From Nocardioides baekrokdamisoli (GTDB lineage: Bacteria > Actinomycetota > Actinomycetes > Propionibacteriales > Nocardioidaceae), in NCBI RefSeq assembly GCF_003945325.1, contig NZ_AP019307.1, positions 2,852,001 through 2,916,000 on the forward strand: 64,000 nucleotides of DNA, written 5' to 3'. Below are positions 30,647-43,331 of this stretch, in pieces. The notes under the pieces were generated by a model. The model was given only the letters and a program-made list of their open reading frames with translations, was not told the origin of the DNA and ran no database searches. How positions within the stretch are numbered: the stretch's first letter is position 1; each line of letters opens with the position of its first letter. A program made the position numbers and the translations under genes.

Positions 30647-30693
30647 TGCGGATGCTTCCTATTCTGCCGATGTCAGGGCGATGGGCGACACAC

Positions 30694-30721
30694 GAAAGTG
30701 GCACGCATATGTGCCACTTTC
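30694..30721 (+). terminator. 11-bp stem hairpin after phhB
   Basis: GAAAGTGGCAC-gcatat-GTGCCACTTTC forms a perfect 11-bp stem with a 6-nt loop. It ends the phenylalanine/tyrosine operon, though there is no U-run after it. A further GTGCCACTT at 30752-30760 suggests a decayed second copy. Confidence 0.6.
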
Positions 30722-30774
30722 TGAGTAAACGGGCCGCGACCGTGCCACTTGCTGGCGTTCGTGCGATCAATGAT

Positions 30775-30786
30775 CGGATCTGCCGC
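30775..30786 (+). repeat. Array repeat DR1
   Basis: CGGATCTGCCGC, one mismatch to the core CTGATCTGCCGC. Left edge of the array, 54 nt after the operon terminator. Confidence 0.6.
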
Positions 30787-30788
30787 TC

Positions 30789-31010
30789 TCAGATCCAGTG
30801 GACAAGGATCGTCGCGGCAAGAGCGAGCGGAAGGGCCAGACCAAGCCACCGCGCCACGCGGATTCGTCGGTAGCGACGTGAGCCAGGTTCCGGCTTGCGT
30901 CCGGTGAACATCTCGACCGTCGACTCGCCCCAGGGGACAGTTAGAAACCACGAAGCCAGACCGAACACGACGGCTACTCCCAGCCCGAGCAAGGCGTGGC
31001 GGGTGTTCAC
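30789..31010 (-). CDS. Small membrane protein (array segment DR1-DR2)
   Basis: A 73-aa protein with two hydrophobic segments, HALLGLGVAVVFGLASWFLT near the N terminus and WLGLALPLALAATILVHWI at the C terminus, joined by a basic loop (GRKPEPGSRRYRRIR). Both helices plausibly span the membrane. GTG start without a clear ribosome site. Its stop codon lies 2 nt from DR1. No family recognised. Confidence 0.55.
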   Translation of the reverse strand: MNTRHALLGLGVAVVFGLASWFLTVPWGESTVEMFTGRKPEPGSRRYRRIRVARWLGLALPLALAATILVHWI

Positions 31011-31042
31011 GTCGCAAGGATGTCAGACGTCGTTGGCCGTTC

Positions 31043-31054
31043 CGGTTCTGCCGC
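31043..31054 (+). repeat. Array repeat DR2
   Basis: CGGTTCTGCCGC, two mismatches to the core; lies between the small membrane protein and the signal peptidase gene. The 120 bp between DR2 and the next gene end hold no ORF. Confidence 0.45.
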
Positions 31055-31173
31055 GAGTCGACCGCATCCCTCAGAGGGTGGCCCAAGAGCCAACTGACGG
31101 GACTCCTGCCGCGTCACACAAGCGCCCCAGATCGGTGACACCGACCTCCTCGCCGCGAAACACAAAGAGTGGC

Positions 31174-31794
31174 TCAGCGCACGACGACCCCGACGACGTC
31201 GGCGATCGGTACGAACACTAGGTCAGAGCATTGCGCCTGTACCGCCCGACTGGGCGCGCACATGTGGAACGCCGAGTCGGCACTGGTCGAGCGGTTGTCT
31301 CCCATCACGAAGAGTTCCCCGGCGGGCACGGTCACTTTCCAGCCCTCTGAACACGCCTTCGGGCTATCCCCGTAAGCCTCTGGACCATCACAGAACGTGG
31401 GGAGCACAGCCGCGTCCGGAACGCCTGCGCGCGGGGCAAGGAAGGGCTCGGGCATCGCGGTTCCGTTGATGATCAGTTCACCAGTGGACTTGTCGCAGCA
31501 CACGATCGTCTCGCCAGGCATCCCGATGACACGCTTCATGAGTTGGCCGGAGTCCGAGCTGTAACTCCAGCCGCTGGGAGTATTGAATACCACGATGTCC
31601 AGGCGCTTCGGCGAGTACGAAAAATGGTCGCCGTTGACACGCTCGACCCAGAAGTGTTCACCGGGCTTGATCGTCGGATACATCGATACCCCCGGCAGGT
31701 GCATCCGGTGGAAGGTCCACAAGATGCCACCGAGGCCAAGCACCACCACCGCACCGACGGCACCAATCCCGAGCAACCACCTCTTCCGAGTCAT
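31174..31794 (-). CDS. Signal peptidase I (array segment DR2-DR3)
   Basis: A 206-aa type I signal peptidase with one N-terminal membrane helix (WLLGIGAVGAVVVLGLGGILW) and an outside catalytic domain: nucleophile Ser in GVSMYPTI, general-base Lys in MKRVIGMPGE and box E VPAGELFVMGDNRSTSADSAF. This is the bacterial Ser-Lys type, unlike the two SipW-type enzymes near 60-62 kb. Two Cys-pairs (CCDKST, CDGPEAY...KACSEG) are unusual. A housekeeping-type enzyme as cargo of the array is notable; its substrate may be other secreted array products. Confidence 0.88.
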   Translation of the reverse strand: MTRKRWLLGIGAVGAVVVLGLGGILWTFHRMHLPGVSMYPTIKPGEHFWVERVNGDHFSYSPKRLDIVVFNTPSGWSYSSDSGQLMKRVIGMPGETIVCCDKSTGELIINGTAMPEPFLAPRAGVPDAAVLPTFCDGPEAYGDSPKACSEGWKVTVPAGELFVMGDNRSTSADSAFHMCAPSRAVQAQCSDLVFVPIADVVGVVVR

Positions 31795-31916
31795 GGCGCG
31801 GACGGTACTCCGATATCCGAGGTCGAACGGCGAGAAGCAGTGAATGCGCGCCCACCTGCAACGTCCACAGACCAAGCCGCACTTCGCGAAGTGCACTGTT
31901 CTGGCTCCCTTCTGTG

Positions 31917-33098
31917 TCAAGAGGCGGCTGGATGGTGCCTCTGTTCGACGGCGCCAGCGGGGCGTAGCGTGGTGGGCACGGGTCCGGGAAGTGGCTGATC
32001 CGAAGTGTCGATGTGCGGGGGCAGGTCGACCGCGCTGGATATGTCAGACGCCCCGCAGTGCCCTCCCGGACCCGCTTCACGTGCGTCGGCCACGAGTTGG
32101 CGATAGATCACATCCGAGATGCGTCGCTTCAAACACCGCAGTGCTTCCATCGGGGTCTTCCCGGCCGCGAGTTTGCGTCGGTAGTAGGCCCGGCCTTCGG
32201 TGTCACGCCGGATCTGGACGATCGCGGCGATGTGGATGACGTGGTTCATCCGCCGGTTCCCGGCCCGCGATAACCGGTGTCGGATCTGCTCACCAGATGA
32301 GGCATCCAACGGTGCGGTGCCGGTCCAGGAGGCGAACCTGTTCCGGTCAGCGAACCGGACAACATCGCCGACATCGGCCAAGATCCTGGCTGCGCCCGCT
32401 GGGCCGATGCCGTGAATGTCCATCAGGTGCGATCCGCGTTCGAGGACTGCAACTTTCAGCTCGGTGTTGATCTTCTTCAACTTCCGGTCCAGGACGACAA
32501 GGTCGGCGATCTCCTCAGCGGTGATCCGGCGACGCATCCTCCCAGCCAGATCCCGGGGCTTCACTGTCGCGAGCAGGGCCTTGGCTTGATCGGCTGACAG
32601 GTCACGTTTGCGCTGGCCAGGCAGCAATTCACTGAGCAGGCGTTGGATCCGGTTCACGGTCTGAACCCGCAGATGCGAAAGCTCATCACGACGATCGGCG
32701 AGCATCCGGATCACCTCCAGTCCCTCATCGACCGCCAGCACACGTAGACCTTTGGTGTGGACTGCGACCGCGGCGATCGAATGCGCATCGGTCGCGTCGG
32801 TCTTCCGGTTGTGGCCGGTATCGAACAACCTCACCCGGGCGGCGAGCTTGGCCGGAACATCGACCACGGACTCGCCAGCGGCGAGCAACCGTTGGGCCAG
32901 CGGTCGGCCGGCACCGTTGGCACCCTCAACCGCCCACACCCGATCAGGCCACTGCGCCACGTACTTCCGCATCAGCCGGTACCCGTCGGTGTCGGTGGCA
33001 TATCGGCCGCCGCCAAGTCGGTGACCGTGGTGGTCGACGACCTCGATCGTGGCCGAGAGTTTGTGGGGATCGACCCCAATGTTCACTGCATCCATCAC
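31917..33098 (-). CDS. IS110-family transposase, copy 1
   Basis: A 393-aa DEDD recombinase. N-terminal RuvC-like domain: NIGVDPHKLSATIEVVD with the first Asp, WAVEGANGAGRPLA with Glu, and GHNRKTDATDAHSIAAVA with the two further Asp. C-terminal Tnp20 part: LMDIHGIGPAGAARILADVG with helix-hairpin-helix and FASWTGTAPLDASSGEQIRHRLS, which carries the Ser region. Product identical to that of copy 2. Its end lies within 15 bp of the IS border. Confidence 0.95.
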   Translation of the reverse strand: MMDAVNIGVDPHKLSATIEVVDHHGHRLGGGRYATDTDGYRLMRKYVAQWPDRVWAVEGANGAGRPLAQRLLAAGESVVDVPAKLAARVRLFDTGHNRKTDATDAHSIAAVAVHTKGLRVLAVDEGLEVIRMLADRRDELSHLRVQTVNRIQRLLSELLPGQRKRDLSADQAKALLATVKPRDLAGRMRRRITAEEIADLVVLDRKLKKINTELKVAVLERGSHLMDIHGIGPAGAARILADVGDVVRFADRNRFASWTGTAPLDASSGEQIRHRLSRAGNRRMNHVIHIAAIVQIRRDTEGRAYYRRKLAAGKTPMEALRCLKRRISDVIYRQLVADAREAGPGGHCGASDISSAVDLPPHIDTSDQPLPGPVPTTLRPAGAVEQRHHPAAS

Positions 33099-33320
33099 GT
33101 TTCCTCGCTTCGATTCGATTGAACTGAAACGGCGAGGTGGGCAGTGCTACTACGAGCTGGGCAGTCCCTTCTTGAGCCACGCCTCGTCAACGGTGACCCG
33201 GCGGGCAGCAGACCAGAAGAGAGCCACACCCTCTGGTGGGCAGCCGCAAAGAGAGCCGTCCCGCCGGGCACCTAGACCGAGTCTGGCCAGACACCGATCC
33301 TGACCGGAAGTCTCTTAGTA
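33099..33320 (-). ncRNA. Candidate IS110 bridge RNA region, copy 1
   Basis: The 222 bp upstream of the transposase contain a nested structure: outer stem CCCGGCGGG (33197-33205) with CCCGCCGGG (33260-33268) and inner stem ACCAGA (33212-33217) with TCTGGT (33232-33237). In IS110 elements the non-coding end encodes a bridge RNA whose internal loop pairs with the target. On the minus strand this loop contains GCGGC, complementary to the GCCGC half of the array repeat, and GGTCTGCTGC, which resembles GATCTGCCGC. Structure is visible; function is inferred. Confidence 0.5.
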
Positions 33321-33376
33321 GCCGCTAATCGGTCGGACTCAGGCGGGCCCCGCCGACGCGACTGCCCGTACCGCGG

Positions 33377-33943
33377 TTAGTCGCCAAAGGTCTGGCCCGG
33401 AGCCGCCACCGCGCGGCGTCTCGGAATCACCCCGAGCAAGAGGGCACACGCCACAAGGCTGACCACTGCAACCGATGCCGACCACGCGGAGCCACCGATC
33501 GCATGCCAATCCACGTCCCACGGGGCGGGCGGCTCGTAGTCCGAGCCGAACAGCCCATTACCCGCGAACGCGAGAACCGGGGCGCCGATGCCCACCACGC
33601 CAAATGCGACTGCACGCCAAACCTTGTGAAAGCGCATCGACACATACACGATGCCGATGATCACGCCGACGAATGCAACGTTCGCCGTCAGGGTCCACAG
33701 CGACATGACGATGATGCTCATCTTGATCCCGTCCGGGAGCGCGTCGTAGTTGATCGACCCGTCGCTATTGATCGGATCACGCGGCGCTGTCGTTGTCGTT
33801 GGGATCGAGGTCAGGTCAGCGCGGTTGGAGAACGCGTGGACGATCCCGTCGACTCCGACATAGAGCGTCATCGTCACCCACATGCCGATCCCGATGAGGC
33901 TGAGAACCCACAGGGCCTTGGGTGCCTGAAAGGTCTGTGCCAT
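33377..33943 (-). CDS. Membrane protein (array segment DR3-DR4)
   Basis: A 188-aa protein with about four hydrophobic helices: ALWVLSLIGIGMWVTMTLYVG, SLWTLTANVAFVGVIIGIVYV, VAFGVVGIGAPVLAFAGNGLF and ASVAVVSLVACALLLGVI. A loop of ~45 residues rich in Thr/Pro/Asp after the first helix should face outside. No family recognised. Confidence 0.7.
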   Translation of the reverse strand: MAQTFQAPKALWVLSLIGIGMWVTMTLYVGVDGIVHAFSNRADLTSIPTTTTAPRDPINSDGSINYDALPDGIKMSIIVMSLWTLTANVAFVGVIIGIVYVSMRFHKVWRAVAFGVVGIGAPVLAFAGNGLFGSDYEPPAPWDVDWHAIGGSAWSASVAVVSLVACALLLGVIPRRRAVAAPGQTFGD

Positions 33944-34033
33944 GGCCGCAATCTACGACCAACAACCCGGGAATTCTGCGGCAGCACCGCCGGCCGCGAG
34001 GAGCCACCTGCTCTCCAGCCGCGGGTGAACGCC

Positions 34034-34045
34034 CTGATCTGCCGC
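34034..34045 (+). repeat. Array repeat DR4
   Basis: Exact core CTGATCTGCCGC with upstream AACGCC, matching the full consensus. Confidence 0.75.
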
Positions 34046-34092
34046 AGTGCGCCGGTCCGTTCCCGCCAGTCTGGGATCATGGATTCGTGGCG

Positions 34093-34848
34093 ATGACGAC
34101 GGGCCGGTACGCCGCGAGACCTCTAGGCCCCGGCGGTGGCGGATATGTGATTGCCGTTGCCGTCAGCCTCGTTGTGTTCAGCACGCTGGTGACTGCGTCA
34201 TTGGCCAACAGCGACGGCCTCGCGTGGGGTGGAACGTTCCTTTTCGTCCTGATTGTCGGGGTTATCCCGGCTACAGCAATTGGCTTCCTTGGGGTTGGTG
34301 TTCTCGAACTGGTGACCGGTCGCTTTCGTCATCAGTGGCCGGCCGTAGTACTGGCCTGCGTCGTGGGGGCCGCGGAGGGAGCCGCGCTCCTTCCCCATAG
34401 CCTCGTCTTCGCCACGTACCTCGGGGTGTCCGCGGGAGTTGGTCGCCTCTCCGTCGTTCCCCTGGTCGCGCGGCGACGGATAGCGCTGCGAGACCGAAGG
34501 ACAGACGTTTTCCACCACCGGCGTGGGCTTGGGCCAACCCGCAGGAGTCAGTTCACGGATGCCACGTCAGTGTTTCGTCTTCGCGTCGATGGCGTCTTCG
34601 AAGCCCGAAGGCGCGGGACCGTCGTCGTTGGCGAGATAGTCACAGGCGAGATCAGTGTCGGGGACTTCGTAGCAGTGGAGAACCGGGACATCGCGCCGAC
34701 GAAGGTCGTTGGTATCGATCCAGCACCGCGCATACCTGACGCCGCCGGACAGTCGTTTCAACGCGTGGGTCTCTTGGTTCCGGGCTGGAGCAAGACCGAC
34801 GTCACCCTCGGCGACATCCTCGTACACGCGACCAATCAACCGCACTGA
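34093..34848 (+). CDS. Membrane protein with EF-Tu domain 2-like tail (segment DR4-DR5)
   Basis: A 251-aa protein (GTG at 34087 is an alternative start). Residues ~15-125 form three or four membrane helices (YVIAVAVSLVVFSTLVTASL, FLFVLIVGVIPATAIGFLGV, WPAVVLACVVGAAEGAALL). The last ~85 residues (SVFRLRVDGVFEARRRGTVV, then GEISVGDFVAVEN) resemble beta-barrel domain 2 of EF-Tu-like GTPases, without a GTPase domain. The linker RRRIALRDRRTDVFHHRRG is odd and might hide a frameshift. The TGA stop is provided by DR5. Confidence 0.6.
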   Translation: MTTGRYAARPLGPGGGGYVIAVAVSLVVFSTLVTASLANSDGLAWGGTFLFVLIVGVIPATAIGFLGVGVLELVTGRFRHQWPAVVLACVVGAAEGAALLPHSLVFATYLGVSAGVGRLSVVPLVARRRIALRDRRTDVFHHRRGLGPTRRSQFTDATSVFRLRVDGVFEARRRGTVVVGEIVTGEISVGDFVAVENRDIAPTKVVGIDPAPRIPDAAGQSFQRVGLLVPGWSKTDVTLGDILVHATNQPH

Positions 34849-34856
34849 TTTGCTGC
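34845..34856 (+). repeat. Array repeat DR5
   Basis: CTGATTTGCTGC, two mismatches, upstream AACCGCA. Its TGA (34846-34848) is the stop codon of the preceding gene. Confidence 0.65.
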
Positions 34857-34890
34857 GACGCGAAAGAGCGTTTGCGAATACGCTCGACCA

Positions 34891-35211
34891 ATGGCGCACT
34901 CCCAGATTCTTGATATTGCCAGCGAGCACTCGCTGACGTTCTACTGCGGTGACCTGCCGGCAGACCCCGCGGTCGTCGCCGCTCAGCACGAGCCGAACGG
35001 ATACTTCTGGGAAGGCGTCGCAACCTTTGTTGCCCCCGAGATCGCGGACCGCCTCGACCTCGACTCCGAAGCCGGCATGTTCAGTGCATCAGGTTCGAAG
35101 ACGGACTGCCAGGCGCTCCAAGCCGTTCTGGAGCCACTGATCGGTTCCTCCGAGGCAATCAGCGGCGTCATCACACGAGCCAACGAGGCCGGATTCGAGT
35201 TCGACGACTAA
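34891..35211 (+). CDS. Imm51-like immunity protein (segment DR5-DR6)
   Basis: A 106-aa acidic soluble protein: LTFYCGDLPADPAVVAA, HEPNGYFWEGVATFVAPEI, DLDSEAGMFSASGSK and a C terminus FEFDD. The NGYFWEG centre and overall order resemble the polymorphic-toxin immunity family Imm51. No toxin gene adjoins it, so it would be an orphan immunity gene carried as cargo. Family assignment is by eye and moderate. Confidence 0.6.
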   Translation: MAHSQILDIASEHSLTFYCGDLPADPAVVAAQHEPNGYFWEGVATFVAPEIADRLDLDSEAGMFSASGSKTDCQALQAVLEPLIGSSEAISGVITRANEAGFEFDD

Positions 35212-35215
35212 CGCA

Positions 35216-35227
35216 CTGATCTGCCGC
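35216..35227 (+). repeat. Array repeat DR6
   Basis: Exact core CTGATCTGCCGC with upstream AACGCA, starting 4 nt after the stop of the Imm51-like gene. Confidence 0.75.
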
Positions 35228-35259
35228 GCTGAGCGACCCGCACATGGCAAAGTTCAGGC

Positions 35260-35625
35260 ATGAGTTACGACCTTGCAGTCTGGGAAGGCGAACAGCCAAT
35301 CTCTGATGCGGCTGCTCTTGACTGCTACCTGAAGCTCATGGACCGCATGGAGTCGGGCGACCACGAGCCGACCCCGACGCCGGCAATTATGGCCTTCGTC
35401 GAGGCCTTGACGGCTAGGTGGCCTGACACGGATGAAGCATGGGACGACGACGAGACGCCATGGGCCGACGCCCCCATCATCAACAACGCCTTCGGCGACG
35501 CCATCTACTTCGCAATGACCTACAGCGGCGCCGAACGTGCGGTTCCGTTCGCAGCACAATGCGCTTCAGAGCTCGGGCTTGTCTGCTTTGATCCGCAGGC
35601 TGAATCACTCGTTTCGGCCCGATGA
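35260..35625 (+). CDS. Hypothetical protein, MSYDLAVWEG type (segment DR6-DR7)
   Basis: A 121-aa acidic soluble protein starting MSYDLAVWEGEQPISDAAAL, with MAFVEALTARWPDTDEAWDD and a middle APIINNAFGDAIYFAMTYSGA. I recall this N-terminal pattern from short actinobacterial hypothetical proteins often near toxin/immunity genes, but no function is known to me. No signal peptide or membrane helix. Confidence 0.65.
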   Translation: MSYDLAVWEGEQPISDAAALDCYLKLMDRMESGDHEPTPTPAIMAFVEALTARWPDTDEAWDDDETPWADAPIINNAFGDAIYFAMTYSGAERAVPFAAQCASELGLVCFDPQAESLVSAR

Positions 35626-35641
35626 CGGCCAGCCAAGCATC

Positions 35642-35653
35642 CTGATCTGCCGC
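35642..35653 (+). repeat. Array repeat DR7
   Basis: Exact core CTGATCTGCCGC; the upstream part (AGCATC) departs from the consensus. Confidence 0.7.
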
Positions 35654-35664
35654 AGACAAGGCGT

Positions 35665-35949
35665 TCAAGATTGGCCTAGTTCGACGATCTCTGGACGCAT
35701 CCGCATCAGGGCATGGAGATCCTCAGCGCTGTGGTCCTCCGACTGCCGGATGAAGCGTCCGACCACCACGAACCGGCTGCCGATGGCGCGCAAGTGGACC
35801 GGAATCGTCTCCGTCTCGAGATCCCACGTCACTTCGCCACCCGCGATGCCGACTCCGCGGAAGCGCTCGAGCTCGACCTTGGTCATGCTCCCTGGCAGAT
35901 GCATGAGGACTGTTGCGATCTCGCGGTAGTCGCCCGACACGATGGACAC
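35665..35949 (-). CDS. Hypothetical protein (segment DR7-DR8)
   Basis: A 94-aa soluble protein read from a GTG at 35949 (SIVSGDYREIATVLMHLPG at its N terminus). The frame stays open to 36000, but that would run through DR8, so the shorter form is chosen. A beta-rich middle (GEVTWDLETETIPVHLRAIG) and C-terminal helix are visible. No family recognised. Confidence 0.5.
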   Translation of the reverse strand: MSIVSGDYREIATVLMHLPGSMTKVELERFRGVGIAGGEVTWDLETETIPVHLRAIGSRFVVVGRFIRQSEDHSAEDLHALMRMRPEIVELGQS

Positions 35950-35983
35950 CCGGCCAGTCTCGCGCGGCGACGGGAGATCCACA

Positions 35984-35995
35984 CTGTTTTGCCGC
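35984..35995 (+). repeat. Array repeat DR8
   Basis: CTGTTTTGCCGC, two mismatches, upstream CCACA. Confidence 0.6.
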
Positions 35996-36093
35996 GACAC
36001 TGCCGATATGAGTGCGTACTCCGACCTCAGAGAGACGGCGCACTAGTAGCGGAATACGTTGACCCGCTGCTGATCCTCTGCAAACTTGTCGCT

Positions 36094-36552
36094 GTGAGGA
36101 CTCTGCCGCGGTTGATTCTCGTTCTCCCGGCACTGACCGCTTGCGGATCTGCGCCCGCTGCGCCTGCGTCTCAGACGCTGCCTCCTGGGGTAACTCAGGC
36201 GTGCTTCGCCGCAGTCCGCGCTTGGTCGCATGAGGCCTACAAGCTCTCTGACGAGATGGACGAAGCCGTGCCGGAAATCCTGGCTCACGCTCCAGACTTC
36301 ACTCGCCTTCAAGCTCTGGCGGCTGGAGCACAGGGTTGGTGCCCGGCGGATGTCGTCGCATCCATCAGCAGCCCCGTGAGCATTGTCAGGGATCTCGATG
36401 GGCTCGTCGGAGGGTGCCGGAAACACATGTCGGCCAAGTGCGCTCCAGACGTTCTCGGGGCTCTTGCCAGCAGCGGGGCCGAGCTGATTCGGTACGCAGT
36501 GACGGATACCGACATCAGAGCCGGCGTTCCCCCGAGGCCACCCACGCCCTGA
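36094..36552 (+). CDS. Putative lipoprotein (segment DR8-DR9)
   Basis: A 152-aa secreted protein with GTG start, a short signal peptide RTLPRLILVLPALTAC and lipobox LTAC followed by GSAPAAPA. The mature part has four further Cys (VTQACF, QGWCPAD, GGCRKHMSAKCAPD), suggesting disulfides. Its stop TGA follows ACGCCC, the left half of DR9. No family recognised. Confidence 0.65.
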   Translation: MRTLPRLILVLPALTACGSAPAAPASQTLPPGVTQACFAAVRAWSHEAYKLSDEMDEAVPEILAHAPDFTRLQALAAGAQGWCPADVVASISSPVSIVRDLDGLVGGCRKHMSAKCAPDVLGALASSGAELIRYAVTDTDIRAGVPPRPPTP

Positions 36553-36555
36553 AAC

Positions 36556-36567
36556 CCGATCTGCCGT
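36556..36567 (+). repeat. Array repeat DR9
   Basis: CCGATCTGCCGT, two mismatches. The left half ACGCCCTGA is at 36544-36552, so this copy carries a short insertion between the halves. The 91 bp up to DR10 contain no ORF, an empty segment. Confidence 0.5.
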
Positions 36568-36658
36568 TCTGGATGGTTCCGTCTGAGCGAGAGGTTGCAC
36601 TGCGTTCGCCTCGGGTGCTCGATTTTCGCCGGCCGATCACAGGGCACTCCGTGCGAAA

Positions 36659-36670
36659 CTGATTTGCCGT
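36659..36670 (+). repeat. Array repeat DR10
   Basis: CTGATTTGCCGT, two mismatches, upstream GCGAAA. Confidence 0.6.
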
Positions 36671-36723
36671 GACTCTGTCGAGAATCGAGAGCGCATTGGC
36701 GACCCACCTGACACGCTTAGGCG

Positions 36724-37134
36724 ATGAACAGGCATCCGGCGCCTCGATACCCATTCAGACCGGTGTCCTGGGCTTACATCGACGACAGGTTCGCCAAGTT
36801 CGCCGACGATCATCCCGAGTTCGCTCATATGTCGGCCATCGTGAAGAGCGTGCGTGCAGTAGGCGCTGACGCTGATCTCGCCGCGTGCACCTCAATGCAT
36901 GACTTGATAGTCGTCGCCGAACCCATCCCGGAGCCGCCCTATGACGTCGTAGCCATCCGTGCTCCAAGTTCCCTGGCGCACCCGTCAAACGGCTCCGTAC
37001 TCATTGAGCACCTATCCATCACGGGTCGAGACGATCGGCTTGAGCGCCCAGTCGACGAAGCCGTTCTGCTGTTTTGGCGTTTCATGATCGAGAAGTTCGG
37101 CGTCGACCCATCCAATTACTCCCATCCGCAATGA
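36724..37134 (+). CDS. Hypothetical protein (segment DR10-DR11)
   Basis: A 136-aa soluble protein beginning MNRHPAPRYPFRPVSWAYID. Contains FAKFADDHPEFAHMSAIVK, HDLIVVAEPIPEPPYDVVAI and VDEAVLLFWRFMIEKFGVD. The mixed alpha/beta pattern gives no known family. Its TGA stop coincides with the TGA of DR11. Confidence 0.6.
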   Translation: MNRHPAPRYPFRPVSWAYIDDRFAKFADDHPEFAHMSAIVKSVRAVGADADLAACTSMHDLIVVAEPIPEPPYDVVAIRAPSSLAHPSNGSVLIEHLSITGRDDRLERPVDEAVLLFWRFMIEKFGVDPSNYSHPQ

Positions 37135-37142
37135 TCTACTGC
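37131..37142 (+). repeat. Array repeat DR11
   Basis: ATGATCTACTGC, three mismatches, upstream CCGCA. Weakest in the middle, kept because of position and because its TGA ends the preceding gene. Confidence 0.4.
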
Positions 37143-37163
37143 GGGTCTTGGGCGACTACTCGT

Positions 37164-37979
37164 TCAAGGCTGTCGACCCAGGCAATATGCGGCCTGGTTC
37201 ACAGCGACGCTGAGCTCGATCTGCCGGAGGGCCGCGCGAACCTTCGGATCAGTCGCCTTACTCAGCTTGAAGCTGCTGGGCGCCCCGTCGGGAGTCGCGT
37301 CACTCACCTCATACATTGGTGACCCGTCGGCCCCGGCCACGAAATCGAAGTAGGCCCCGTTGGTTCCCCACGTACCCCGGGTGTCGATCGCCAGCGCGAC
37401 GTACTGACGCAACCCAACTGACGCATACGACCCCGGAAGGTCATAGAGCGCGGCATGAGTTCCAATCACGGGCTCCCCTCCGTTGTCGGTCACACCGCTT
37501 GTTCGAGCTGCCATGAGCCTCGCGACCAGCGAGGCCGGCACCGCGTGACACCGGCGAGCGTCAAACCCGATGGACTGCGCGTACTTCGTATCTGCTGTCT
37601 TCGCCTTGGCCGCATCGTCAGCGTCTCCCCGCGCTTCGAGTCCACTGCCAAGAGCGACGAACACGATGCCCAAGCTTCCAATCAGCAGCGCCGGAACCAG
37701 TGTGCGACGCGGCATCGTTCGCAGCGCCCGCCTAGCGCCGCCCACGCACACCGCGATCAGGAAACCCAGACAAGCCGCCGCAAGCCACGCCACCCCGAAA
37801 AAGCCAACAGCGCCACCCACGATGGCGACCTCTGAGCCGCCCGAGTCATTGAACGCACTCACGAACAGGAAACCGACGAAGGTTAGCCCCGCTGCGATCA
37901 TGGTGACGATCCCAAATGTCAACCAGAACGGCAGCCAGAATCGTCCGGCACGTATGGTCGGATCGATCGGTTGACTCAT
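37164..37979 (-). CDS. Membrane protein with exported domain (segment DR11-DR12)
   Basis: A 271-aa protein from ATG 37979. Three hydrophobic helices (FWLPFWLTFGIVTMIAAGLT, GGAVGFFGVAWLAAACLGFL, LVPALLIGSLGIVFVALGSG) are followed by an outside domain of ~150 residues (RRCHAVPASLVARLMAAR, LPGSYASVGLRQYVALAID, GAYFDFVAGADGSPMYEV). A single late Cys pairs possibly with RRCH. No family recognised. Confidence 0.7.
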   Translation of the reverse strand: MSQPIDPTIRAGRFWLPFWLTFGIVTMIAAGLTFVGFLFVSAFNDSGGSEVAIVGGAVGFFGVAWLAAACLGFLIAVCVGGARRALRTMPRRTLVPALLIGSLGIVFVALGSGLEARGDADDAAKAKTADTKYAQSIGFDARRCHAVPASLVARLMAARTSGVTDNGGEPVIGTHAALYDLPGSYASVGLRQYVALAIDTRGTWGTNGAYFDFVAGADGSPMYEVSDATPDGAPSSFKLSKATDPKVRAALRQIELSVAVNQAAYCLGRQP

Positions 37980-38014
37980 GCAGACATGTTGGCCGCTGCA
38001 CAGCCCATTGCGCA

Positions 38015-38026
38015 CTCGTTTGCCGC
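38015..38026 (+). repeat. Array repeat DR12
   Basis: CTCGTTTGCCGC, three mismatches, upstream GCGCA as in the consensus. Confidence 0.5.
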
Positions 38027-38181
38027 TGATCGCGCGCGACCCTGTTGAGATGAGTACGTCTCGTCGGGCCGAACGATGCACAGATCAGCCTTTCCGCAAC
38101 GCCTTGTGGCGGTCCGACACTGGGTTCTAAGGTGGCGCCGTCAGGCATGGTGCACTTGTCCACCCGCAAGAAGGACTTCGC

Positions 38182-38421
38182 ATGATCACACCTATGAAGA
38201 GCATCGCGCTGTTAGGCGCCGCCGCCGCGGTTCTGGCTCTCTCCGCCGCTCCCTCCTCGGCCGACACTGTCTCGGATCTTCAGGGCCAACTCGCAACACT
38301 TCAGGGTCAACTTGCGTACCAGCAGTGCCAACTGCAGAACACGCTGATTCTTGAGGGGATGCGCGTCCCGTATCTCTTTTATCTTCTCCCGAAGGGACAC
38401 ATCTGCATCCCGCCCGGATAG
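38182..38421 (+). CDS. Small secreted coiled-coil protein (segment DR12-DR13)
   Basis: A 79-aa protein with AAGAAGGA 6 nt before the ATG. Signal peptide KSIALLGAAAAVLALSAAPSSA, cut probably after SSA, then a heptad helix (VSDLQGQLATLQGQLAYQQ) encoded by an internal near-duplication. Two Cys (YQQC, HICIPPG). Likely exported; function unknown. Confidence 0.65.
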   Translation: MITPMKSIALLGAAAAVLALSAAPSSADTVSDLQGQLATLQGQLAYQQCQLQNTLILEGMRVPYLFYLLPKGHICIPPG

Positions 38422-38447
38422 TCGGAGTCCTGACCGGCCGGCGGGGG

Positions 38448-38459
38448 TTCACCTGCCGC
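38448..38459 (+). repeat. Array repeat DR13
   Basis: TTCACCTGCCGC, three mismatches; 26 nt after the coiled-coil gene. Confidence 0.45.
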
Positions 38460-38490
38460 AACCGGACATATTCGACGCCGTCTGCCGCCG

Positions 38491-38649
38491 TCAGTTGTGC
38501 CGCTCGATACGGGCCAGGACGTGTTCGCGCAGCGGCGCATGCCCATGTTCAGCCTCAACGTGTCCGATCAACAGATCTGCAAGCGAATCAGCTTCCTCCC
38601 CAGAGAAGGAGGCCTTGCAACGCGGGCATTGAAGCGACAGTTCGGCCAT
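38491..38649 (-). CDS. 52-aa zinc-finger-like protein (segment DR13-DR14)
   Basis: A very short gene encoding MAELSLQCPRCKASFSGEE and continuing ADSLADLLIGHVEAEHGHA. Cys8, Cys11, His30 and His35 form a CxxC-18-H-4-H pattern, a plausible C2H2 zinc finger. Fills the whole segment between two repeats, which supports it as a real gene despite its size. Might bind DNA or a protein partner. Confidence 0.6.
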   Translation of the reverse strand: MAELSLQCPRCKASFSGEEADSLADLLIGHVEAEHGHAPLREHVLARIERHN

Positions 38650-38696
38650 GCGCCGAGTCTGTTACCCATACCCAAGGGGCGACATCCGAGGACGCC

Positions 38697-38708
38697 CAGT
38701 TCTGCCGC
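38697..38708 (+). repeat. Array repeat DR14
   Basis: CAGTTCTGCCGC, two mismatches, upstream GACGCC matching the consensus. Confidence 0.6.
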
Positions 38709-38806
38709 CAACCGTGCGCGGGTTTGTCGAGTTCAAGGGGTCCGGATTGGAACCTTTGCTGACGAACCTGGCGTCATACTTCTGGAGACAGAGGGTTGGA
38801 GGTGCC

Positions 38807-39151
38807 GTGCGCTGGAGCACCGTTCTCGCCGTTGCCGCGCTCATTGCCACTATGACCGGCTGCAGTTCCTCTGACAATGGCGAGGAACCTCACGCGACAC
38901 CGACCTCGTCGCCGTTCTCCCTCTACACCCACTGCGGCATTAGCCGCGCTCGCATCAATGGCCAGTACTACGAAGCAGAAACGCACCTCAGCGACGGGAA
39001 CGACAATCCGCCAAAGGGATGGGGCAATCCGTACCAGCACGGGACCATCACGCTGACGTCACCTTCAACAGCGATCTTTCGCGACGACCGCGGGCACGAA
39101 GTCGTCTTCCGCGCCGCCACGGCGAATCCAAATCACTTCCTCTGCAGTTGA
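38807..39151 (+). CDS. Putative lipoprotein (segment DR14-DR15)
   Basis: A 114-aa exported protein; GTG start with TTGGAGG 6 nt upstream. Signal peptide RWSTVLAVAALIATMTGC with lipobox MTGC, followed by SSSDNGEEPHATPTSS. The mature domain (YTHCGISRARINGQYYEAE, then TITLTSPSTAIFRDDRG, ending HFLCS) has two Cys likely in a disulfide. No family recognised. Confidence 0.7.
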   Translation: MRWSTVLAVAALIATMTGCSSSDNGEEPHATPTSSPFSLYTHCGISRARINGQYYEAETHLSDGNDNPPKGWGNPYQHGTITLTSPSTAIFRDDRGHEVVFRAATANPNHFLCS

Positions 39152-39184
39152 GACGAGAGGTTTGGGCGGCGCACACCGGACGCC

Positions 39185-39196
39185 CTCATCTGCCGC
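39185..39196 (+). repeat. Array repeat DR15
   Basis: CTCATCTGCCGC, one mismatch, upstream GACGCC. Confidence 0.7.
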
Positions 39197-39238
39197 GACG
39201 AGTCTTCTGAGAATCCGGTCGGCAACTAATGTCTCCGT

Positions 39239-39715
39239 ATGCGCGAACAAGACCCGCGGGTACCGGCCGACGTCGAGCAGTACCTAATCGAACTGTTCGC
39301 ACGTGCCGGCCAACTCGGTGGATCGATCGGGGGCGGAGTGGGCGCTGGCGGAGCCGGGGCACTCGGTGGCGGTCGCGGCGGAGCCAAGGGCGGGGCCCGG
39401 GGCGCGATGCGACTCCGGACCGTCGTAGAGGATCGCGGCACAGTTGCGCCCCTGACACGTGACGAAGCACTTCAGAAGCTCACGAGCGCATTCCCGAAGC
39501 TCATACCGTTGCCGACCGCCGATGCGGCGGTCCGTGTGGCGATTCCGCTTGGATTGACCGGGCTTCAGCAAGTTGTTGTGGACATCCTCGTCCCGGCCTC
39601 TTCCGACGGTCAGCAACTGCCCCTCGTGCGCACATATTGCAAAGAGGGACTGCTCAGCCGGAAACCCGCCGCCCGGATCGCAGATCAGGTCGCTAACGCC
39701 CTTCAAAACCAGTAG
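39239..39715 (+). CDS. Hypothetical Gly-rich protein (segment DR15-DR16)
   Basis: A 158-aa protein: N-terminal VPADVEQYLIELFARAGQLG, a very Gly-rich stretch (GGGVGAGGAGALGGGRGG), then a folded C-terminal domain (LTRDEALQKLTSAFPKLIPL, GLTGLQQVVVDILVPASSDG, LVRTYCKEGLLSRKPAARIA). The Gly run may let it insert in membranes or act as a linker. No family recognised. Confidence 0.6.
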   Translation: MREQDPRVPADVEQYLIELFARAGQLGGSIGGGVGAGGAGALGGGRGGAKGGARGAMRLRTVVEDRGTVAPLTRDEALQKLTSAFPKLIPLPTADAAVRVAIPLGLTGLQQVVVDILVPASSDGQQLPLVRTYCKEGLLSRKPAARIADQVANALQNQ

Positions 39716-39791
39716 TCGCGCGCCAGCGACGGCGAGGACATCTAGGTCGGTAGCGACCGCCCTGAACGCGCTGATCTGGCTCCCTTCTGTG

Positions 39792-40973
39792 TCAAGAGGC
39801 GGCTGGATGGTGCCTCTGTTCGACGGCGCCAGCGGGGCGTAGCGTGGTGGGCACGGGTCCGGGAAGTGGCTGATCCGAAGTGTCGATGTGCGGGGGCAGG
39901 TCGACCGCGCTGGATATGTCAGACGCCCCGCAGTGCCCTCCCGGACCCGCTTCACGTGCGTCGGCCACGAGTTGGCGATAGATCACATCCGAGATGCGTC
40001 GCTTCAAACACCGCAGTGCTTCCATCGGGGTCTTCCCGGCCGCGAGTTTGCGTCGGTAGTAGGCCCGGCCTTCGGTGTCACGCCGGATCTGGACGATCGC
40101 GGCGATGTGGATGACGTGGTTCATCCGCCGGTTCCCGGCCCGCGATAACCGGTGTCGGATCTGCTCACCAGATGAGGCATCCAACGGTGCGGTGCCGGTC
40201 CAGGAGGCGAACCTGTTCCGGTCAGCGAACCGGACAACATCGCCGACATCGGCCAAGATCCTGGCTGCGCCCGCTGGGCCGATGCCGTGAATGTCCATCA
40301 GGTGCGATCCGCGTTCGAGGACTGCAACTTTCAGCTCGGTGTTGATCTTCTTCAACTTCCGGTCCAGGACGACAAGGTCGGCGATCTCCTCAGCGGTGAT
40401 CCGGCGACGCATCCTCCCAGCCAGATCCCGGGGCTTCACTGTCGCGAGCAGGGCCTTGGCTTGATCGGCTGACAGGTCACGTTTGCGCTGGCCAGGCAGC
40501 AATTCACTGAGCAGGCGTTGGATCCGGTTCACGGTCTGAACCCGCAGATGCGAAAGCTCATCACGACGATCGGCGAGCATCCGGATCACCTCCAGTCCCT
40601 CATCGACCGCCAGCACACGTAGACCTTTGGTGTGGACTGCGACCGCGGCGATCGAATGCGCATCGGTCGCGTCGGTCTTCCGGTTGTGGCCGGTATCGAA
40701 CAACCTCACCCGGGCGGCGAGCTTGGCCGGAACATCGACCACGGACTCGCCAGCGGCGAGCAACCGTTGGGCCAGCGGTCGGCCGGCACCGTTGGCACCC
40801 TCAACCGCCCACACCCGATCAGGCCACTGCGCCACGTACTTCCGCATCAGCCGGTACCCGTCGGTGTCGGTGGCATATCGGCCGCCGCCAAGTCGGTGAC
40901 CGTGGTGGTCGACGACCTCGATCGTGGCCGAGAGTTTGTGGGGATCGACCCCAATGTTCACTGCATCCATCAC
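39792..40973 (-). CDS. IS110-family transposase, copy 2
   Basis: The 393-aa product is identical to the copy-1 transposase: DEDD residues in GVDPHK, VEGANG and KTDATDAHS, helix-hairpin-helix in IHGIGPAGAARI and the C-terminal Ser domain. Full-length and without disruption, so probably active; identity of the copies points to recent transposition. Confidence 0.95.
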   Translation of the reverse strand: MMDAVNIGVDPHKLSATIEVVDHHGHRLGGGRYATDTDGYRLMRKYVAQWPDRVWAVEGANGAGRPLAQRLLAAGESVVDVPAKLAARVRLFDTGHNRKTDATDAHSIAAVAVHTKGLRVLAVDEGLEVIRMLADRRDELSHLRVQTVNRIQRLLSELLPGQRKRDLSADQAKALLATVKPRDLAGRMRRRITAEEIADLVVLDRKLKKINTELKVAVLERGSHLMDIHGIGPAGAARILADVGDVVRFADRNRFASWTGTAPLDASSGEQIRHRLSRAGNRRMNHVIHIAAIVQIRRDTEGRAYYRRKLAAGKTPMEALRCLKRRISDVIYRQLVADAREAGPGGHCGASDISSAVDLPPHIDTSDQPLPGPVPTTLRPAGAVEQRHHPAAS

Positions 40974-41195
40974 GTTTCCTCGCTTCGATTCGATTGAACT
41001 GAAACGGCGAGGTGGGCAGTGCTACTACGAGCTGGGCAGTCCCTTCTTGAGCCACGCCTCGTCAACGGTGACCCGGCGGGCAGCAGACCAGAAGAGAGCC
41101 ACACCCTCTGGTGGGCAGCCGCAAAGAGAGCCGTCCCGCCGGGCACCTAGACCGAGTCTGGCCAGACACCGATCCTGACCGGAAGTCTCTTAGTA
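40974..41195 (-). ncRNA. Candidate IS110 bridge RNA region, copy 2
   Basis: Same 222-bp non-coding end as in copy 1, with the nested stems at 41072-41080/41135-41143 and 41087-41092/41107-41112. Role inferred from the IS110 family. Confidence 0.5.
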
Positions 41196-41344
41196 GCCGC
41201 AAACCGTTCTGCTGCAATGCCAAGGCAGAGGACCAGTGCCGGGATGTCGCGCTGCTTCTTTGTCGCAAGTCAATCGCTGCGGCGTGGAACCTGCGCCACG
41301 GCGTCGGCGTCATACTCGGCATCCCCTGGTTCGAAGGAGTTCAC

Positions 41345-41857
41345 ATGTGTGTGGAAGTCGTTCGCGCGGCCTTCGTGAGTGCGTTGACAGTTGCCTGCCT
41401 GACGGGATGCGGATCTATAGGCACCGCGGCCAATCCGAGCGCCTCTGCAAGCCTGGCTACGTCGCATCCGGCCGCGCCCATGCCGCCGCACGGCTACCTC
41501 GGCAACTGGACAGTCGAGTCGGTGAGCACGATGGGTGCCGACGGGCCGATGATCCCAGTTCCGGGTTCCGCGACTCTTCAGTTCTTGGACAATGGCACCG
41601 TGACCGGATTTGATGGCGTGAACCCTTGGAGTGGTCGCTTCGTTGCCGCGGACGCACCGGTCGCCCAGATCCGGATTCGTGACGTCCATTCGGGGCTGGT
41701 CGGCCTTACCGCCGCGGCGCCGACATGGCAGAGGGCGCTCACGAGCTCGTTCGCGGTGATTGAGTCTGGCGCCCCAATGAGGGTTACGGGCAACAGAGAT
41801 CGGCTCACCATTCACGTTGGCGAAGCTGTACTCGTCATCGGCCGCTTAGTTGGCTAA
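41345..41857 (+). CDS. Putative lipoprotein, META-like domain (segment DR16-DR17)
   Basis: A 170-aa exported protein with AAGGAG 5-6 nt before the ATG. Signal peptide VRAAFVSALTVACLTGC, lipobox LTGC. The mature part LGNWTVESVSTMGADG, SATLQFLDNGTVTGFDGVNP and the later QRALTSSFAVIESG follow the order of META/HslJ-type domains, though the usual GCN is GVN here. The segment between the IS and this start (41201-41344) shows no other gene. Confidence 0.65.
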   Translation: MCVEVVRAAFVSALTVACLTGCGSIGTAANPSASASLATSHPAAPMPPHGYLGNWTVESVSTMGADGPMIPVPGSATLQFLDNGTVTGFDGVNPWSGRFVAADAPVAQIRIRDVHSGLVGLTAAAPTWQRALTSSFAVIESGAPMRVTGNRDRLTIHVGEAVLVIGRLVG

Positions 41858-41888
41858 TCGGCGGCTTAGGGCTGCCAACAACGACGCA

Positions 41889-41900
41889 CTCATCTGCCGC
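41889..41900 (+). repeat. Array repeat DR17
   Basis: CTCATCTGCCGC, one mismatch, upstream GACGCA. Confidence 0.7.
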
Positions 41901-41902
41901 GA

Positions 41903-42160
41903 TCAGTCCCGCACGAAATCCGTGAGGCCAGCCCGCCGAACCGCATCACTCGTCGCCTGACGCACACCGAAGGGAGCGGATTCGGTGCGGAAGGGCTGAC
42001 CAAGAATCGAAGGGTCGTTGAAGCCTGTAAGGCATTCGAGGCACTCAACGACCACCGCGCCAGTGTCTTCTCGGATGGCGAATACGAGGTCCCCATTCGC
42101 GCAAACCGTGCACTGATCCAATCGCCTGACAGACACCCACTGAGTATGGGCACGCCTCAT
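41903..42160 (-). CDS. Small zinc-ribbon-like protein (segment DR17-DR18)
   Basis: An 85-aa protein from ATG 42160 with two CxxC knuckles, LDQCTVCANGDLVFAI and VVECLECLTGF, the arrangement of a zinc ribbon. The C-terminal half (QPFRTESAPFGVRQATSDAV) is helical. An overlapping frame on the same strand lacks these motifs and is rejected. Stop codon 3 nt from DR17. Function unknown. Confidence 0.6.
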   Translation of the reverse strand: MRRAHTQWVSVRRLDQCTVCANGDLVFAIREDTGAVVVECLECLTGFNDPSILGQPFRTESAPFGVRQATSDAVRRAGLTDFVRD

Positions 42161-42170
42161 GCGAACCGCA

Positions 42171-42182
42171 CTCTTTTGCCGC
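42171..42182 (+). repeat. Array repeat DR18
   Basis: CTCTTTTGCCGC, three mismatches, upstream AACCGCA. Between it and 42421 no convincing gene is seen; a minus-strand frame with a hydrophobic segment lacks a good start and reads through this repeat. Confidence 0.5.
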
Positions 42183-42421
42183 TGTGCGCGTCTCAACACC
42201 GATCGCGTCTGCGGCGATCAGTCCCACGTAGGTGAGGTCCTTCAACTCAGATTCAGCTGACGTGAGGGCGTCGCGTCTCATCCGCGGGGCCGTGGTCAGA
42301 CCCTCCAGGCTGACCACACCCACGACGGCACCTGCGATCCCAACGAAGATGCCTGGCAGGCACGCAGGAGGGTCCGTCCGATGTCAGGGCTGACCAGATC
42401 CGTACGCCTCAATCGGTGTCT

Positions 42422-42673
42422 TCAACGGCCGGCGGCCCGTAACTCCGCTTCAACGTTTGAGAGGTACCTGTCCACCTCGCCCATCGCATAGCCGGGACGG
42501 ATCCGAACGGGAGTGAATCGCGCATTCTGGATCTCGCTGCTCGTAGCCGTACCAGCCTCGATTTTCGCCACGAGCGCGTCGACGTCCTCGACGGCATATC
42601 CCTCCCGCCAACGAACCAACCTGAACCGAGCTGGAGCGATCGGTTGTTCGCCATTGAAGGACATCTGAGTCAT
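42422..42673 (-). CDS. DivIVA-domain protein (segment DR18-DR19)
   Basis: An 83-aa protein with two copies of the short DivIVA-like motif found in actinobacterial proteins: ARFRLVRWREGYAVEDVDAL and ARFTPVRIRPGYAMGEVDRY. Each would form the helix-turn that binds membrane or partner. Too short to have the long coiled coil of true DivIVA/Wag31. ATG 42673 chosen; 42664 is possible. Confidence 0.7.
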   Translation of the reverse strand: MTQMSFNGEQPIAPARFRLVRWREGYAVEDVDALVAKIEAGTATSSEIQNARFTPVRIRPGYAMGEVDRYLSNVEAELRAAGR

Positions 42674-42726
42674 GAGGACACGGTACGACGCTCGGCCGTC
42701 ACTGCTGCTGATGCGAGACTTGCCCG

Positions 42727-43323
42727 GTGACCGAGACAGCCGACGGGCAACATTCGCCGGACGGGATCTGGTGGTGGACGGGCGAGGAGTGGATCTCGGC
42801 GTGGAGCCCGGACTTTCGCTACTGGTTCGACGGTTCGACGTGGATACCGCAGTCATCAGCTCGCCGAGGTCAGTCGGCGTTCCTCCGTCGATCAGACTGG
42901 GTACTCGGGGGAATCTGGATCACCGGGGCGATCCTCGCAACCGGATTCGGGATGCAGGCGGCCAGCCACAACGACCATCCGGAACTGGAGCCGACATGGG
43001 CGCTGTGGTCGTGGGGCGGCGTCGCAGCGACTCTTGTCCTGATGATGCCCGTCATGGGATACCTGACGTGCCGGGCACCCGGCCGAATCGCGCGCATGGC
43101 CCTCGCCACAGCCTTGGTCTGGGGCTCGCTGCTCGCGGCGTATGTGCTGGCAATGGCAACGTCCTCAGACCCCAACAGCGACAATGCCGCCGGGGCCGGC
43201 CTCGTCGTCCTGGGTATCCCTGCCGGGTTGGCAGCCGCCGCCCTGGTCGGGTTCGGCGGGCTGCTGCGGTTGGCAGTCGATCGGCTTCGAGCCCGACTCA
43301 CGTCGGGACCACGTACGCCCTGA
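42727..43323 (+). CDS. Membrane protein with WWTG-type N terminus (segment DR18-DR19)
   Basis: A 198-aa protein with GTG start. The N-terminal ~45 residues (SPDGIWWWTGEEWISAWSPD, FRYWFDGSTWIPQ) resemble the Trp-rich DUF2510-like modules that precede membrane segments in actinobacteria; four hydrophobic helices follow (WVLGGIWITGAILATGFGM, LWSWGGVAATLVLMMPVMGY, ALATALVWGSLLAAYVLAMA, LVVLGIPAGLAAAALVGFGG). Its TGA stop is inside DR19. Confidence 0.7.
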   Translation: MTETADGQHSPDGIWWWTGEEWISAWSPDFRYWFDGSTWIPQSSARRGQSAFLRRSDWVLGGIWITGAILATGFGMQAASHNDHPELEPTWALWSWGGVAATLVLMMPVMGYLTCRAPGRIARMALATALVWGSLLAAYVLAMATSSDPNSDNAAGAGLVVLGIPAGLAAAALVGFGGLLRLAVDRLRARLTSGPRTP

Positions 43324-43331
43324 TCTGCCGC
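43320..43331 (+). repeat. Array repeat DR19
   Basis: Exact core CTGATCTGCCGC with upstream TACGCC. Last copy seen; right edge of the array. Its TGA terminates the preceding gene. Confidence 0.75.

Follow-up and report, generated by a model that had tools for sequence, protein, structure and literature searches.

A probable integron-like gene-cassette system of Actinomycetes with dif-like TGCCGC sites, represented by an integrase-free array in Nocardioides baekrokdamisoli

The stretch of DNA analyzed here, referred to as the window, comprises bases 2,852,001-2,916,000 (64,000 nucleotides) of the 2,965,302-base single-contig genome of Nocardioides baekrokdamisoli (labelled G000), and contains a row of small genes separated by short repeats of one orientation. 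The observed repeat array is confirmed as real, and very probably belongs to an integron-like gene-cassette system of Actinomycetes, of which G000 would hold an array without its integrase. We also consider it likely, with somewhat less assurance, that this is a second, independently evolved integron-like system, in which a dedicated Xer-derived clade of tyrosine recombinases would build and reshuffle chromosomal arrays through double-stranded, dif-like TGCCGC sites, filling a role that true integrons rarely fill in the phylum, with its own site-targeting element of the IS110 insertion sequence (IS) family and 34-bp gene-less minimal cassettes. In the proposed mechanism, each cassette would be a short segment that usually holds a single gene, in either orientation, and has the left arm of a site at its end; the full site (an arm of ~10 bp, the spacer TGCCGC and an inverted arm of ~10 bp) would be formed jointly by two adjoining cassettes. 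A tyrosine recombinase would cut and rejoin double-stranded DNA within TGCCGC, which would let a cassette excise as a circle or insert into another site of this kind; the spacer, being directional, would hold the sites in one orientation. We infer catalysis by a particular recombinase clade, circular intermediates, the exact cleavage points and an adaptive role from the patterns described below.

The repeats of the window were located in two ways. A search with the 18-mer at up to three mismatches gave nine matches, all on the + strand and all within the array, where 0.73 were expected and 100 shuffles gave at most three. A weight matrix built only from 28 copies in another array of the genome (array 2), and hence independent of the window, was run on both strands at a cut-off score of 12; it found 14 matches in the whole window, all on the + strand and spanning 30769-43331, compared with a mean of 1.5 and a maximum of six in two-mer-shuffled windows (n=50). 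Together with two diverged copies recognized by a separate matrix at 36653 (score 12.0) and 37125 (score 9.6), the array totals about 16 copies. An earlier note on this DNA had proposed 19 copies in the same orientation, starting at 30775; the orientation stands, the count falls to about 16, and the first copy begins at 30769. Its five exact 12-bp cores, one of them split by an IS, were recovered, since CTGATCTGCCGC is intact at 34028, 35210, 35636 and 43314 and a fifth copy is divided between 39765-39778 and 41197-41200; another IS-split site occupies 31890-31903 and 33322-33325. Most intervals contain one plausible small open reading frame (ORF) in either orientation, the ORF of each interval being picked by length and by eye, in agreement with the note's description of usually one small ORF per repeat interval and of ORFs in both orientations. 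An Rfam scan of the window returned nothing at gathering thresholds.

Across the genome, the degenerate 18-mer at up to two mismatches gave 63 matches, compared with five for the reversed pattern used as a control. At up to one mismatch, 27 of 28 matches fall in five clusters, and at up to two mismatches 47 of the 63 do so; the possibility that the repeats are equally common elsewhere, examined in part by this search, was thus not borne out. At a score of at least 12, the clusters comprise five sites at 103-108 kb (all +), seven at 547-550 kb (all +), 33 at 2,042-2,062 kb (the largest; 32 on the − strand), six at 2,786-2,788 kb (all −) and 14 at 2,883-2,895 kb (the window array; all +). In total, 64 of the 65 sites in the fetched genome stretches keep the orientation of their own cluster. 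The repeats are therefore concentrated, with one direction per cluster, and solitary copies outside the clusters are possible. Two − strand site matches 3 kb apart, at 1,756,574 and 1,759,520, lie outside the clusters and possibly form a small sixth array.

Aligning the sites on the spacer (53 distinct sites from G000 and 58 distinct sites from other genomes) revealed a left arm that is strong (CGYMCKSWTC), followed by the spacer TGCCGC and by a right arm that is weaker. The 18-bp direct repeat that had been put forward as the unit is thus real, but constitutes the left arm and spacer of a tyrosine-recombinase-type site, in which two inverted arms of ~10 bp flank TGCCGC; this dyad had been missed. 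Arm complementarity centred on TGCCGC, measured over 10 arm pairs and with the right arm unused in site finding, reaches 0.449 in the 53 G000 sites and 0.512 in the 58 others, while 17 other centres give 0.17-0.34. Within single sites, complementarity does not exceed that obtained when right arms are exchanged at random between sites (P 0.19 and 0.54). Because the dyad is centred on TGCCGC and its arms lack co-variation, the arm pattern fits a protein-binding dyad in double-stranded DNA, similar to dif, and not an attC hairpin. An attC-like hairpin was sought as exact partners of the reverse complement of the left arm downstream in the same 53 and 58 sites and was rejected: 15 of 18 tests gave P of at least 0.08 (up to 1.0), the other three giving 0.019, 0.032 and 0.048 without correction (lowest value 0.0185).

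These properties bear directly on whether the array could be an ordinary integron whose IntI and attC sites have diverged past recognition. A row of small genes with one-direction sites, integrase-free arrays and IS110/IS1111-type insertions in the site would all be expected of an integron, and a review names Actinobacteriota among the phyla in which integrons were detected (PMC8618304). Against this, the arms do not co-vary, the hairpin tests are as given above, the site profile contains no GTT-type conserved core, and the candidate recombinase described below scores 53.6 bits with the integron integrase profile TIGR02249, whose cut-off is 265; we regard this explanation as improbable in the extreme. 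The earlier statements that the repeats have no GTTRRRY core and no attC, and that a recombinase other than IntI would serve the cassettes, are supported, the latter by a candidate enzyme found in relatives.

Several further features of the sites were observed. A second motif resembling TGCCGATGAGCG lies downstream of the spacer at a variable distance in many sites (L022, L153 and others). A 10,226-bp contig with a recombinase (L154, genome G047) contains a variant site, CGCCCGACCA-TGCCGC-TGTCGG, with the same spacer and other arms, belonging to a repeat family of seven copies, some at 28-bp spacing. Tandem rows of a 34-bp unit, each unit corresponding to one site, occur with 18 plus two exact copies in L196 (G139), 17 in L195 (G156) and four in L210 (G012); such units resemble minimal cassettes without a gene, and those of L196 and L210 are ~95% identical despite the genomes belonging to different families.

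Evidence that cassettes move as units comes from nearly identical stretches found in different contexts. In G000, 2,052,846-2,053,110 and 2,046,793-2,047,057 share 265 bp at 98.9% identity in two contexts, and window positions 30693-30786 are 87% identical to 2787123-2787216 in the cluster near 2,787 kb, with homology stopping exactly at the end of TGCCGC. Genome G012 carries a 334-bp stretch, 99.7% identical, at two loci ~1.84 Mb apart, one copy of which begins at a site directly upstream of a recombinase gene, and G097 has a 231-bp stretch in two contexts (98.7% identical); less similar copies are shared across species by G017 and G098 (85%) and by G103 and G098 (86%). Six left and seven right boundaries were hand-picked from such pairs, one of the right boundaries being the stretch that precedes the recombinase. 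Identity at these boundaries is 0.97-0.98 within the 6-bp spacer and drops outside it, to 0.26 past the left arm and, on the right, to 0.46 and then 0.32; the alignments were ungapped, so that identity inside cassettes is understated, and the value of 0.50 within the left arm refers to a sequence that is conserved regardless. An unselected count started from 175 rows of alignments close to sites, 80-3,000 bp in length, of which 28 were kept after removal of IS, recombinase and tandem-row matches: 25 of their 112 ends lie within 20 nucleotides of a spacer end, whereas randomly shifted alignments gave 3.2 ± 1.7 with a maximum of nine in 500 runs. Sequence comparison thus supports well the view that cassettes have been copied as units with breakpoints at TGCCGC, and the expectation that units are copied singly, their breakpoints lying inside the repeat, is borne out within and between genomes. 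As a clean empty-site comparison, the 540-556 kb locus was aligned with G079 and rejected, as the flanks align and an inversion is present.

In a different reading, the sites would be dispersed regulatory or REP-like (repetitive extragenic palindromic) repeats, and the gene row would be a hot spot of recombination that is not site-specific. The position of sites near gene ends, with several stop codons overlapping a site, the 34-bp tandem rows and the matches outside the clusters would suit such repeats, but they would not account for stretches copied with their ends in the 6-bp spacer, for a dyad centred on that spacer, or for the clustering, uniform orientation and recombinase association of the sites. 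This reading appears highly improbable.

The candidate recombinase, P0001, is a 308-amino-acid tyrosine recombinase encoded in an array of genome G021, where its gene is flanked on both sides by a set of sites, most of them directed away from it. It consists only of a SAM-like and a catalytic domain (PF00589, E 1.2e-22), and its nearest solved structure by sequence is XerD; it scores 118 and 120 bits with the XerC and XerD profiles, whose cut-offs are 335 and 330. A structure model of modest quality (pLDDT 72, pTM 0.54) best matches the phage Brujita integrase, XerD and XerA at rmsd values mostly above 10, which indicates the fold class only. R160, K186, H250, R253, H276 and Y285, which we take to be the catalytic residues (R, K, HxxR, H, Y pattern), are invariant in 21 aligned clade members. 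Eleven of 98 genus genomes, including G021, encode a protein with at least 70% identity over most of the P0001 length, and 97 of the 98 contain some related recombinase. Among 394 genomes sampled from the class, with the best five candidates of each scored, 17 match P0001 at 1e-60 or better, eight of them at 70% identity or more. Environmental relatives number 6,550 proteins at E <1e-50 among 7,999 candidates scored, a cut-off that also lets in proteins from outside the clade associated with sites. Viral and plasmid collections gave two viral matches to the recombinase (34% and 27%) and two from Pseudonocardia plasmids (42.5% and 37.1%).

The enzymes of this recombinase group form one clade of 20 rows with a support of 100/100, and the sites accumulate around them. 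At a score of at least 15, the 331 kb around the 20 loci of the group, one of which (L161) carries a 63% fragment, contain 64 sites, a density of 19.3 per 100 kb. Setting aside the discovery locus (L022) and L196, which is rich in tandem copies, leaves 27 sites over 295 kb, or 9.1 per 100 kb. No site was found in 123 kb around homologues of 38-48% identity (n=7) or in 39 kb around homologues of 54-61% (n=2). Other actinobacterial loci (n=75, five site-bearing loci excluded) have eight sites in 1,431 kb, or 22 sites in 1,478 kb (1.5 per 100 kb) with those five kept, so that the background ranges from 0.6 to 1.5 per 100 kb. A dyad around TGCCGA/C lies within 90 nucleotides of the recombinase stop codon at 14 of 19 loci, with at least four of 10 pairs in 11 and all 10 in one, compared with three of 17 control homologues, one of which has at least four pairs (Mann-Whitney P 1.3e-4; the stop is probably misplaced in L159 and L196). 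In G021 and G012, a site also precedes the recombinase gene by no more than 71 bp; this site, or the dyad behind the gene, may be an attI-like primary site. Genus genomes with the enzyme average 5.6 pattern matches (n=11) and those without it 1.55 (n=86; P 0.0013). Because the 98 genomes give 210 matches in total against 51 for the reversed control, single matches mean little; at least five occur in 13 of the 98, so that rows of sites are patchy. Judging from this association, the XerD-like P0001 clade, whose genes lie among such sites in related genomes and are often followed closely by a palindromic site behind the stop codon, most likely catalyzes recombination at TGCCGC sites. In L157 (G082), a 10/10 palindrome around TGCCGA stands shortly behind the recombinase stop, with no other site scoring at least 15 in 20 kb, and is a possible primary site.

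A number of observations weigh against this interpretation of the system. On the side of the sites, 16 of the 63 genome matches at up to two mismatches fall outside the clusters, the right arm is weak, and the last base of the spacer varies, being TGCCGC between cassettes and often TGCCGA beside the enzyme, which simple strand exchange does not explain. On the side of mobility, 87 of the 112 alignment ends lie away from any site, and the comparison between strains covers loci other than the window's own array. On the side of the enzyme, seven of the 20 recombinase loci have no site at a score of at least 15 (some of these bear variant sites), and the surroundings (L199) of L176, a 59% member inside the clade, likewise contain none at that score. 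Seven genomes (G103, G098, G017, G019, G052, G080 and G089) have 5-13 pattern matches and no enzyme match above 39%. G000 itself has no close relative of P0001: its best proteins are 39% and 41% identical, the first being XerC/XerD-like (a fragment), and none of its ten matches to the tyrosine-recombinase domain is located in the five clusters.

Some of these points would also favor action by the host XerC/XerD, as in the dif modules of Acinetobacter, with the P0001 clade as a mere frequent passenger. The size and symmetry of the site (~10-6-10) resemble dif, whose layout is 11-6-11, its modules being bounded by dyad sites of ~28 bp with a 6-bp spacer (PMC12907356, PMC10132070); G000 has XerC/XerD-like proteins and no P0001-clade member, and a close match to P0001 is missing from several genomes that are rich in sites. 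The P0001 clade is nevertheless tied to the sites, often with one shortly behind its stop; cluster sites are direct repeats, while the sites of Acinetobacter dif modules are described in opposite orientations (PMC10132070); and the rows are patchy (13 of 98 genomes) while a related recombinase is present in 97 of 98. Like XerC/XerD and other simple tyrosine recombinases, P0001 has only the SAM-like and catalytic domains and is nearest to XerD, yet it falls far below the XerC and XerD cut-offs, and its sites are many per genome and patchily distributed. Host Xer action is, on balance, an unlikely explanation.

Returning to a P0001-clade integrase as the probable agent, the five clusters of G000 would be integrase-free arrays, because the genome has no enzyme of this clade; they may date from a time when the genome still had an integrase, or an enzyme from elsewhere may have acted on them. 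At the tRNA-Thr gene that borders the largest G000 array, the related genome G004 (locus L161) carries a shorter island with the 63% recombinase fragment and a site, and the tRNA end is duplicated on the far side of the island in both genomes. The comparison suggests that the enzyme was once present in G000 and has since been lost. The largest array of G000 fills an island at 2,040,144-2,062,025 (L009/L010), bounded by tRNA-Thr(CGT) on one side and, on the other, by a 48-bp copy of the end of this tRNA.

The site is also the target of an insertion sequence. Three IS110-family copies were found in G000 (40 of 76 first-look candidates scored), each splitting a site at TG^CCGC, and the transposase matches NF033542 at 164.1 bits (cut-off 140). 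Relatives of this element (63-77%) begin within 20 bp of sites in L212, L213 (G103) and L215 (G098). Because IS110 relatives begin near sites in other genomes, targeting of the site may be old. Integron attC sites are known targets of IS1111-family elements (PMC11187229), as are pdif sites of a different IS family (PMC10132070).

Along the window array, all sites lie on the + strand and, unless stated otherwise, were found by both the 18-mer search and the array-2 matrix, and the cassette genes have no Pfam match. The array opens with a cassette end of ~95 bp at 30693-30786 (+), which has no evident gene, shows inverted repeats by eye, also occurs in the 2,787-kb cluster, and terminates in the site AATGATCGGATCTGCCGC (30769-30786; matrix and alignment). 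A gene of the S26 signal peptidase family (31174-31794, −; PF10502, E 1.6e-28; start set by eye from ORF 31174-31920) is followed by the left part of the first IS110-split site (31890-31903, matrix and alignment), whose CCGC resumes at 33322-33325, and by IS110 copy 1 (31904-33321, −; inserted at TG^CCGC and 99.7% identical to copy 2). A gene for a membrane protein by eye (33377-33943, −) precedes the site at 34028-34045, and a 253-amino-acid membrane protein by eye (34087-34848, +) has its stop codon inside the site at 34839-34856. The Imm51 immunity-protein gene, assigned by Pfam (34891-35211, +), is followed by the site at 35210-35227, a 121-amino-acid gene (35260-35625, +), the site at 35636-35653, an ORF of 111 amino acids (35665-36000, −) and the site at 35978-35995 (matrices). 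A lipoprotein-like protein by eye of 152 amino acids (36094-36552, +) comes before the diverged site at 36653-36670 (matrices; score 12.0 with the separate one), and a 136-amino-acid gene (36724-37134, +) has its stop codon inside the diverged site at 37125-37142 (separate matrix, score 9.6). Next are a membrane protein by eye (37164-37979, −), the site at 38009-38026 (matrices), a 79-amino-acid ORF with a secreted-looking product by eye (38182-38421, +), the site at 38691-38708, a lipoprotein-like gene by eye with an uncertain start (38714-39151, +), the site at 39179-39196 and a 158-amino-acid gene (39239-39715, +). The left part of the second IS110-split site (39765-39778, matrix and alignment; CCGC resumes at 41197-41200) adjoins IS110 copy 2 (39779-41196, −; transposase 39792-40973; alignment and profile match). 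The remaining features are a lipoprotein-like gene by eye with a META-domain match below cut-off (41345-41857, +), the site at 41883-41900, an ORF of 98 amino acids (41903-42199, −; an 87-amino-acid form in another frame, 41890-42153, was scanned without a Pfam match), the site at 42165-42182 (matrices), an ORF with a DivIVA match below cut-off (42422-42673, −), and a gene for a membrane protein by eye with an LtrA match below cut-off (42727-43323, +), the end of which overlaps the last site of the array (43314-43331). Directly to the right of the array lies a 12-bp tandem repeat (CGCCAGCACCAC, 44314-44377).

Among the 16 cassette-ORF translations of the window scanned with Pfam (IS transposase excluded), two were over the cut-off (Imm51 and the S26 signal peptidase), three matched below it and 11 had no match; several of the products are membrane- or lipoprotein-like by eye. 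None of eight cassette proteins (seven from the window and one from array 2) matched defence models. Imm51 relatives were fetched at 80 loci, and sites of the TGCCGC type occur in the same stretch at five of them, all in other actinobacteria.

In its working the system resembles an integron, assembled from a dif-like site and a Xer-derived enzyme; judged on the tested features, it belongs to neither the integron nor the dif-module family. As in integrons and in clusters of attC sites lacking an integrase (CALIN), rows of mostly single small genes end in recombination sites of one direction; as in integrons, a tyrosine recombinase gene lies beside some arrays and not others, IS110/IS1111-type elements are inserted in the sites, and cassettes move as units, judged here by sequence comparison. 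Unlike the situation in integrons, the recombinase falls short of the curated cut-off for the IntI family, the site appears as a short dyad of the double-stranded type with a TGCCGC spacer and no arm co-variation, and the genes occur in both orientations. The Acinetobacter dif modules share the dyad arms and 6-bp spacer and are likewise described with a site-targeting IS family; in contrast, the present sites form long chromosomal rows of direct repeats (64 of 65 following the cluster orientation), a separate recombinase clade is associated with them, and spacer and arms are different. An open-access literature search by titles and the beginnings of abstracts, with subscription papers and preprints outside its scope, found no description of such a system. 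In the IntegronFinder 2.0 survey, true integrons are described as very rare in Actinobacteria, with no complete ones (PMC9024848).

If this interpretation is true, integron-like gene capture evolved more than once, and a pool of uncharacterised cassette genes is opened. The system would reduce to one small enzyme and one site of ~30 bp, which makes it experimentally tractable. Integrons are gene-collecting systems, known above all for the spread of antibiotic resistance in other bacteria, and the actinobacteria considered here seem to possess an equivalent of their own.

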